This document shows, piece after piece, positions 16,296 through 16,800 of a DNA stretch of 54,860 nucleotides; the first letter of the stretch is position 1, and the number at the start of each line of letters is the position of its first letter. The notes below the pieces were generated by a model, which saw nothing but the letters and a program-made list of their open reading frames with translations, was not told where the DNA came from and searched no databases. The stretch is from Flavobacteriaceae bacterium. Its GTDB lineage: Bacteria > Bacteroidota > Bacteroidia > Flavobacteriales > Flavobacteriaceae. The stretch lies in NCBI GenBank assembly GCA_013001965.1, contig JABDLA010000035.1:1-54860 (forward strand), read 5' to 3'. A program made the position numbers and the translations under genes.

Positions 16296-16356
16296 AAAAG
16301 CCTGATAATTTTCTTAAAAAAGTAAACTTTCTACAAAAATTTCAAGCTTTATTTTG

Positions 16357-16431
16357 TCGGGGTGGCAGGATTCGAACCTGCGACCTCCGCGTCCCAAACG
16401 CGGCGCGATAACCGGGCTACGCTACACCCCG
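16357..16431 (-). tRNA. tRNA-Pro (anticodon UGG)
   Basis: Reverse complement CGGGGTGTAGCGTAGCCCGGTTATCGCGCCGCGTTTGGGACGCGGAGGTCGCAGGTTCGAATCCTGCCACCCCGA folds as a cloverleaf: 7-bp acceptor CGGGGTG/CACCCCG, anticodon arm CCGCG-TTTGGGA-CGCGG, T arm GCAGG-TTCGAAT-CCTGC. Confidence 0.97.
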
Positions 16432-16670
16432 AATTGATTATCTTCTAAATATCTTTTAGCTCCTCTTTTCTTGATTTTCTTTTCCAATAGAAGAGCTTTT
16501 GAACGTGATTCCAACTCAATTTTCCAAATCAATTTCCAGGGAATCCCTGATTTTGTTGATTTTACATGACCTAAATTATGTCTATCAAGTCGTTTGCTTA
16601 TATTTTCAGTTTGTCCAACATAGTACTTTTCTCTTTTGAAACTATATAATATGTAAACAAAATATTTCAT
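16422..16670 (-). CDS. GIY-YIG nuclease family protein (82 aa); stop codon inside the tRNA-Pro
   Basis: MKYFVYILYSFKREKYYVGQTENISKRLDRHNLGHVKSTKSGIPWKLIWKIELESRSKALLLEKKIKKRGAKRYLEDNQFGV. YVYIL..YYVG motif, Arg and Glu positions of GIY-YIG/URI domains. The ORF-track start at 16772 extends into the tRNA relic; ATG at 16670 is preferred. Confidence 0.88.
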   Translation of the reverse strand: MKYFVYILYSFKREKYYVGQTENISKRLDRHNLGHVKSTKSGIPWKLIWKIELESRSKALLLEKKIKKRGAKRYLEDNQFGV

Positions 16671-16680
16671 CTTTTGGGTG

Positions 16681-16698
16681 GTCACGCCTCGGCGTGAC
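16681..16698. repeat. Palindromic hairpin replacing the T arm in the tRNA relic
   Basis: GTCACGCC-TC-GGCGTGAC, perfect 8-bp stem. Confidence 0.85.
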
Positions 16699-16727
16699 GA
16701 CCTCCGGGTCCCAAACGCGGCGCGATA

Positions 16728-16745
16728 ATAACGCCAAAGCGTTAT
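16728..16745. repeat. Palindromic hairpin inserted in the D-arm region of the relic
   Basis: ATAACGC-CAAA-GCGTTAT, perfect 7-bp stem. Confidence 0.8.
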
Positions 16746-16763
16746 AAACCGGGATGAGACCTG

Positions 16764-16780
16764 CCACGCCAATGGCGTGG
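16764..16780. repeat. Palindromic hairpin inserted near the 5' acceptor of the relic
   Basis: CCACGCC-AAT-GGCGTGG, perfect 7-bp stem. Confidence 0.85.
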
Positions 16781-16800
16781 TACAGCCCGAAAAACGACTG

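Follow-up and report, generated by a model that had tools for sequence, protein, structure and literature searches.

Hairpin-armed copies of tRNA genes beside GIY-YIG nuclease genes in Flavobacteriaceae: a candidate tRNA-specific cassette

Directly upstream of an intact tRNA-Pro gene and a short nuclease ORF, a flavobacterial contig carries a second, damaged tRNA-Pro copy with three different hairpins in or beside its arms. How did hairpins come to occupy the arms of a tRNA gene copy, and what is the unit to which they belong? We analysed the 54,860-nt stretch that contains this locus (the window), contig JABDLA010000035.1 of Flavobacteriaceae bacterium assembly GCA_013001965.1, a genome that is 87% complete. 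A sequence-only reading had suggested repeated insertion or spread of a family of mini-palindromes rather than simple decay. The locus contains the following features.

16356..16431, minus strand: intact tRNA-Pro(TGG) gene (ARAGORN; Rfam RF00005, 67.8 bits)
16422..16670, minus strand: GIY-YIG nuclease ORF, 82 aa, ATG at 16670 (ORF list; Pfam PF01541, 6.4e-15)
16676..16681, minus strand: remnant of the acceptor 3' strand, CCACCC (sequence)
16682..16697, minus strand: hairpin TCACGCC-GA-GGCGTGA in place of the T arm (sequence; equivalent replacement in many genera)
16698..16727, minus strand: anticodon arm and variable loop of the tRNA-Pro copy (repeat D1, one mismatch against the native gene)
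16728..16745, minus strand: hairpin B, ATAACGC-TTTG-GCGTTAT, an insertion in the D-loop region (sequence; compensatory changes across species)
16747..16753, minus strand: D-loop remnant CCCGGTT (sequence)
16754..16763, minus strand: non-native segment CAGGTCTCAT after hairpin A, similar in related copies (CAGGTC) (sequence, alignment)
16764..16780, minus strand: hairpin A, CCACGCC-ATT-GGCGTGG, on the 5' side of the D arm (sequence)
16781..16789, minus strand: acceptor 5' strand and nt 8-9 of the tRNA copy, CGGGCTGTA (sequence; alignment)

Read from 16789 to 16676, the copy consists of CGGGCTGTA, hairpin A, CAGGTCTCAT, CCCGGTT, hairpin B, the anticodon and variable segment, the T hairpin, and CCACCC. 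The minus-strand sequence confirms the three hairpins at the places given in the sequence-only reading and the general arrangement, but that reading had left out CAGGTCTCAT between hairpin A and CCCGGTT. It is also correct that a hairpin of almost the length of the T arm stands in its place, whereas the two hairpins of the D region are insertions. The anticodon and variable segment matches the intact tRNA-Pro over 31 nt (97%), and the acceptor 5' strand is mutated. The ORF list has only the 82-aa ORF between copy and intact gene, and no integrase-like ORF adjoins them. This ORF lies directly downstream of the copy and ends inside the intact tRNA-Pro, whose nt 8-10 form its TAG stop codon; the sequence-only reading had missed it. 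The layout is thus [tRNA-Pro copy with hairpin arms]-[82-aa GIY-YIG]-[intact tRNA-Pro]. In ARAGORN and Rfam searches only the intact tRNA was detected, and the copy had no tRNA match even at E<=5 and no match to any Rfam family. The copy is a dead tRNA-Pro gene, not a functional one.

The three-hairpin copy was found twice more in the same genome, in tandem beside a second tRNA-Pro gene; the order on that contig (C141) is tRNA-Ser, two tandem hairpin-bearing tRNA-Pro copies, intact tRNA-Pro. The hairpins occupy identical positions in all three copies, hairpin B being eroded in the first C141 copy, and the set was therefore inherited as a module, which contradicts repeated independent insertion into the window copy. 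Downstream of the C141 tRNA-Pro, an approximately 50-bp tandem array of CAGGATCACCGAGTGAAGCGAGGTAATCC runs to the contig end (L048, 3390-3659); it resembles a 3' fragment of the T arm with a palindrome instead of the T loop, and similar pieces follow tRNA-Arg at three other loci (L243, L247, L264).

Other tRNA genes of this genome have similar copies. Contig C114 contains two 3'-half copies of tRNA-Gly, in which TCACGCCCCGGCGTGA takes the place of the T arm, as well as a 3' copy of tRNA-Thr(GGT) with the perfect palindrome CCTGCCTGCCGGCAGGCAGG inserted at the T arm (L049, 1880-1899). Other genera have the latter palindrome in their D-loop copies of tRNA-Arg(TCG). Contig C100 carries T-arm copies of tRNA-Gly(GCC) with TCCCGTTTTACGGGA; the half-flank scan of the genome's own tRNAs was too noisy and was used for these copies only. 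On contig C31 a second GIY-YIG gene, 41% identical, stands between a hairpin-filled 5' copy of tRNA-Ser and, directly downstream, tRNA-Ser(TGA).

The window contains two ACGCC..GGCGT palindromes against 0.11 expected. In pattern searches of the whole genome TCACGCN{0,6}GCGTGA occurred 10 times and the reversed control not once. These searches and the copies of other tRNAs bear out the suggestion that the hairpins belong to recurring families with genomic paralogs. A partial copy of the 5S rRNA 3' end (GAATAGGTCACCGCCTTTCTCG) directly followed by TCACGCTACAGGCGTGA was observed on contig C120 (L062, 600-700).

When the GIY-YIG protein instead of the hairpin served as the query, 115 of 201 genomes of the family proved to contain relatives, in many cases in tandem; about 90 of the loci found in this way were read individually. 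About 12 tRNA isotypes, in dozens of Flavobacteriaceae genera, show the order [tRNA copy with hairpin arm(s)]-[GIY-YIG]-[intact tRNA] or the mirrored order. The units are often tandem, 2-8 per locus; Altibacter has four tandem 349-bp units that include the GIY ORF. The nearest tRNA within 1.5 kb is on the same strand for 137 of 170 GIY copies and on the opposite strand for none, the 170 including tandem copies and a few loci fetched twice, so that the counts are not independent. For each isotype the GIY gene mostly keeps to one side: it precedes Pro, Arg(ACG/TCG/CCT) and Ala, and it follows Val, Arg(TCT), His and Phe (nearest-tRNA entries 'Ser(GCT)' belong to tRNA-Pro arrays). Six and eight tandem GIY-YIG units were seen at two loci (L231, L239), with no tRNA detected in the fetched 4.5-4.7 kb.

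A pattern scan revealed tRNA-Pro copies with a replaced T arm in Winogradskyella, Arenibacter, Eudoraea, Altibacter, Flavivirga, Algibacter, Galbibacter, Gelidibacter, Robertkochia, Aquimarina and others. They range from copies with the T arm alone replaced (L104, L105, L067) to those with three or four altered arms (the window, L112, L122). Hairpin-armed tandem tRNA copies lacking a GIY gene also exist, namely those of tRNA-Gly in L049 and tRNA-Leu in L073 and the mini-units in L100 and L129. In L073, tRNA-Leu(TAG) precedes three units of about 118 bp in tandem; each has TCACGCTTT(A)GGGCGTGA in place of the anticodon arm, and a T arm that is kept or nearly so. Two Balneolaceae loci (L121, L135) contain tRNA-Ile-like copies with the T arm replaced by TCACGC..GCGTGA, apparently lacking a GIY ORF and, in L121, tandem at 122 bp. 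Arm replacement is thus not confined to Flavobacteriaceae.

To characterise the replacements, we searched every locus, outside the intact tRNAs, for the 9-nt native flanks of the arms, allowing any sequence in between. This yielded 23 distinct non-native sequences between the flanks of the anticodon or T arm. Perfect stems of at least 6 bp are formed by 17 of them, against 0.14 expected from shuffles, and 21 have a length of 15-19 nt (native 17). The tRNA-Pro T-arm cases derive partly from loci found by the hairpin; the anticodon-arm cases have such stems in 11 of 14 sequences, also in loci found by GIY alone. The anticodon and T arms are replaced at native length, not interrupted. Regardless of the tRNA, most replacing stems are TCACGC/GCGTGA or TCCCG/CGGGA, with variable loops. 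The D arms mostly have insertions (CCTGCC.., CCCGCC.., TCCGCC..), in similar places in different isotypes.

Replacement affects the arm nearest to the GIY gene. In tRNA-Pro(TGG) this means the T arm for a GIY gene located before the tRNA, and the anticodon arm for one located after it (L211, L223). Counting one locus per row, a GC-rich perfect hairpin within 110 nt was found on the copy side of the GIY gene in 40/54 and 18/23 loci, while random windows have one in 11-12% of cases. Rates of 59% and 43% were obtained on the native side as well, because tRNA arms and terminators themselves form hairpins. A gradual origin of the hairpins from native arms by point changes was rejected for the tRNA-Pro T arm. 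It is possible for a few anticodon arms, given the loop remnants in tRNA-Val and the CCACG-type stems in L138.

REP and CGTC-REP palindromes and RPE are likewise short, GC-rich stem-loops whose stems are conserved and whose loops vary, and they have been reported in Bacteroidetes; REP and CGTC-REP elements have a terminal GTAG/CGTC tag and form dispersed insertions (PMC3733652). One possibility, which comes near to the sequence-only reading, is that REP-like mobile palindromes spread alone into tRNA arms, the GIY gene being a bystander. Insertion into a single essential tRNA would be lethal, and so only spare tandem copies would show palindromes. The same palindromes occur in different tRNA genes and genera, and the perfect palindrome CCCGATAGCTATCGGG has 40 copies in one relative (G101); three other relatives have 0-2 copies, and in two of these it is still present beside a GIY/tRNA cassette. 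The hairpin-armed copies without GIY fit this explanation, as do the TCACGC hairpins beside the 5S rRNA relic, between 23S and 5S and at three further sites of our genome. However, most of the 10 TCACGC sites of this genome are in tRNA or rRNA loci, the anticodon and T arms keep their length, and no constant GTAG/CGTC end tag lies beside the hairpins across arms and isotypes (the CGTC before the tRNA-Pro T hairpin stems partly from the tRNA's own GGTCG). Y1/RAYT transposases are the usual mobilisers of REPs. A RAYT transposase was rejected as the mover of the hairpins, as the 87%-complete genome has no PF01797 match while the controls were positive. Independent REP-like mobility explains the D-arm insertions and the GIY-less copies, but not replacement at constant length; it may apply to the D arms, which show plain insertions. 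As an account of the whole locus we consider it unlikely, although the best placed of the alternatives. The free palindrome family of the sequence-only reading is also not the unit: the unit is a tRNA copy with its GIY-YIG cassette, and T and anticodon arms are replaced one for one across species.

Standard pairing in 18 aligned tRNA-Pro copies is higher in hairpins A (98%) and B (93%) than in the anticodon (88%) and acceptor (83%) stems; the 100% of the T hairpin is fixed by the search pattern. Hairpin B changes on both sides across copies, T-A to C-G, and A-T to G-C and C-G. Judging by this alignment, the hairpins outlast the cloverleaf. A cloverleaf kept as a functional RNA was rejected, given the decay of the acceptor stem and the absence of a tRNA score for the copy.

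A different role at the RNA level would be that the copy is co-transcribed with the intact tRNA, and that the exchanged arm prevents mispairing with this essential tRNA or competition with it in processing, or that a structured leader controls GIY translation. GIY copies with a nearby tRNA are all on its strand, shuffled sequences fold less well than the RNA of the window copy (z -4.0), and the D-region hairpins are paired in 93-98% of alignment cells against 83% for the acceptor stem. In silico folding gave the native tRNA more cloverleaf pairing with an exchanged in place of a native arm in 7 of 15 cases and less in one, mainly for T arms. However, a scrambled arm is nearly as good (mean 0.48 vs 0.51), so the hairpin is not needed, and anticodon-arm exchanges are mostly without effect. 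An RNA insulator model based on partition-function folding was rejected, its effect being partial for T arms and about equal with scrambled arms, though an insulating role agrees with these results in part. The acceptor stem decays, the copy is recognised neither as a tRNA nor as an Rfam family, and in its minimum-energy fold hairpin A is paired with the T hairpin, so that three separate hairpins are not assured at the RNA level. We regard such a role as improbable. Finally, although the acceptor 5' strand of the window copy is mutated, an ordinary decayed pseudogene with chance palindromes is hardly credible, being refuted by the threefold module in this genome, homologous hairpin-armed copies in many genera, the 10 hairpins against none in the control and the 17 stem-forming replacements against 0.14 expected; on this point the sequence-only reading was right.

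The GIY-YIG domain (PF01541) covers residues 2-72 of the ORF of about 82 aa. Residues Y17, G19, R27, H31, E63 and K67 are invariant in 19 diverse relatives. The dN/dS ratio is about 0.06-0.3 among GIY pairs of the tRNA-Pro family, with saturated distant pairs left out, which indicates purifying selection. The best matches of the GIY profile are UPF0213 structures and SLX1 (PDB 1zg2, 1ywl, 7cq2). Phage homing endonucleases are matched weakly. SLX1, which cuts branched DNA, is larger and works with SLX4, and to our knowledge UPF0213 and SLX1 nucleases do not occur as tRNA-linked tandem cassettes. The GIY tree (one row per locus) has 23 isotype changes compared with 47 when shuffled, although it is built on about 80 columns and many forks are unresolved. 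By this tree, GIY-YIG subfamilies track the tRNA isotype; the clustering could partly reflect vertical inheritance at fixed loci.

As in homing endonuclease cassettes, the catalytic Tyr, Arg and Glu of the GIY-YIG domain are present, and each subfamily has one conserved type of target gene, as seen from the isotype clustering and same-strand linkage. However, the domain search revealed no DNA-binding domain beyond the nuclease core in the ORF of about 82 aa, and we therefore do not class the unit as a free-standing GIY-YIG homing endonuclease cassette, but only as one that would work like it.

The closest parallel is SegB, a GIY-YIG endonuclease of phages T4 and T6. The T6 enzyme cuts inside tRNA genes at sites sharing the motif RAWTSGAAC; SegB drives tandem amplification of tRNA and segB, and is tRNA-linked across phages (PMC13096335). 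We read this motif as the reverse complement of the T-loop sequence GTTCSAWTY. Both systems combine a GIY-YIG catalytic domain, a position beside tRNA genes of many isotypes, and tandem units of tRNA and nuclease gene. SegB is phage-encoded and larger, and no hairpin-armed tRNA copies have been described for it, whereas the flavobacterial cassette is chromosomal, encodes about 82 aa, has one tRNA per cassette, and its ORF often stops inside the tRNA. Integrative elements likewise leave a partial tRNA duplication beside the intact tRNA at insertion (PMC9897764), but here there is no integrase, the cargo is one 250-bp ORF, and the tRNA fragments have hairpins for arms.

Since the flavobacterial cassettes have the ingredients of SegB and, in addition, a copy with the nearest arm destroyed, we favour a homing-like or amplifying cassette, and give about an even chance to the reading that the window feature is the left end of a minimal, tRNA-specific, homing-like GIY-YIG cassette. 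It builds on the observed anatomy, the recurrence at many isotypes and in many genera, the catalytic residues, the isotype-tracking subfamilies and the tandem amplification of units. By analogy with SegB, the nuclease would cut the cognate tRNA gene or a cruciform formed by the tRNA arms, and repair from a cassette-bearing copy would insert or amplify the unit beside the tRNA. The intact tRNA would be retained because it is essential. Conversion of the arm nearest to the nuclease gene into a hairpin would remove the native arm sequence, the probable recognition site, and would disable the copy as a tRNA; the hairpin-armed copy may thus be a cut-resistant or inactivated remnant. The T arm is intact in mirror-layout copies, so a T-loop target cannot be general, and as GIY-less hairpin-armed tandem copies exist, the hairpin exchange may not depend on the nuclease. 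The GIY arrays in which no tRNA was detected (L231, L239) also speak against this reading. A plausible source of the arm-replacing hairpins is the capture of REP-like palindromes circulating in the genomes, which would be tolerated only in a spare copy.

A bolder version, which we consider rather doubtful, is that of a putative new class of bacterial selfish element: a single-gene, Slx1-like, isotype-specialised GIY-YIG nuclease acting on tRNA-arm cruciforms and leaving cut-resistant copies with the nearest arm swapped for a standard hairpin, so that stem-loop swapping would be a mutational process.

Literature searches on these palindromes found no description, and the accessible literature, with most subscription journals outside its coverage, has none of hairpin-armed tRNA copies or of chromosomal tRNA/GIY arrays in Flavobacteriaceae. 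This looks like an apparently undescribed selfish or homing-like element at tRNA genes of the family: a variant of tRNA-linked GIY-YIG elements, with an arm exchange for which no counterpart was found in the accessible literature. If this is true, tRNA genes across a major bacterial family carry an undescribed tandem nuclease cassette, which would explain many 'GIY-YIG nuclease' annotations that run into tRNA genes. The copies would also form a natural data set on the exchange of whole stem-loops with the surrounding tRNA sequence intact, and one could test if tRNA arms serve a minimal GIY-YIG nuclease in cutting and amplification, either by their sequence or by forming cruciforms, as in the case of SegB.
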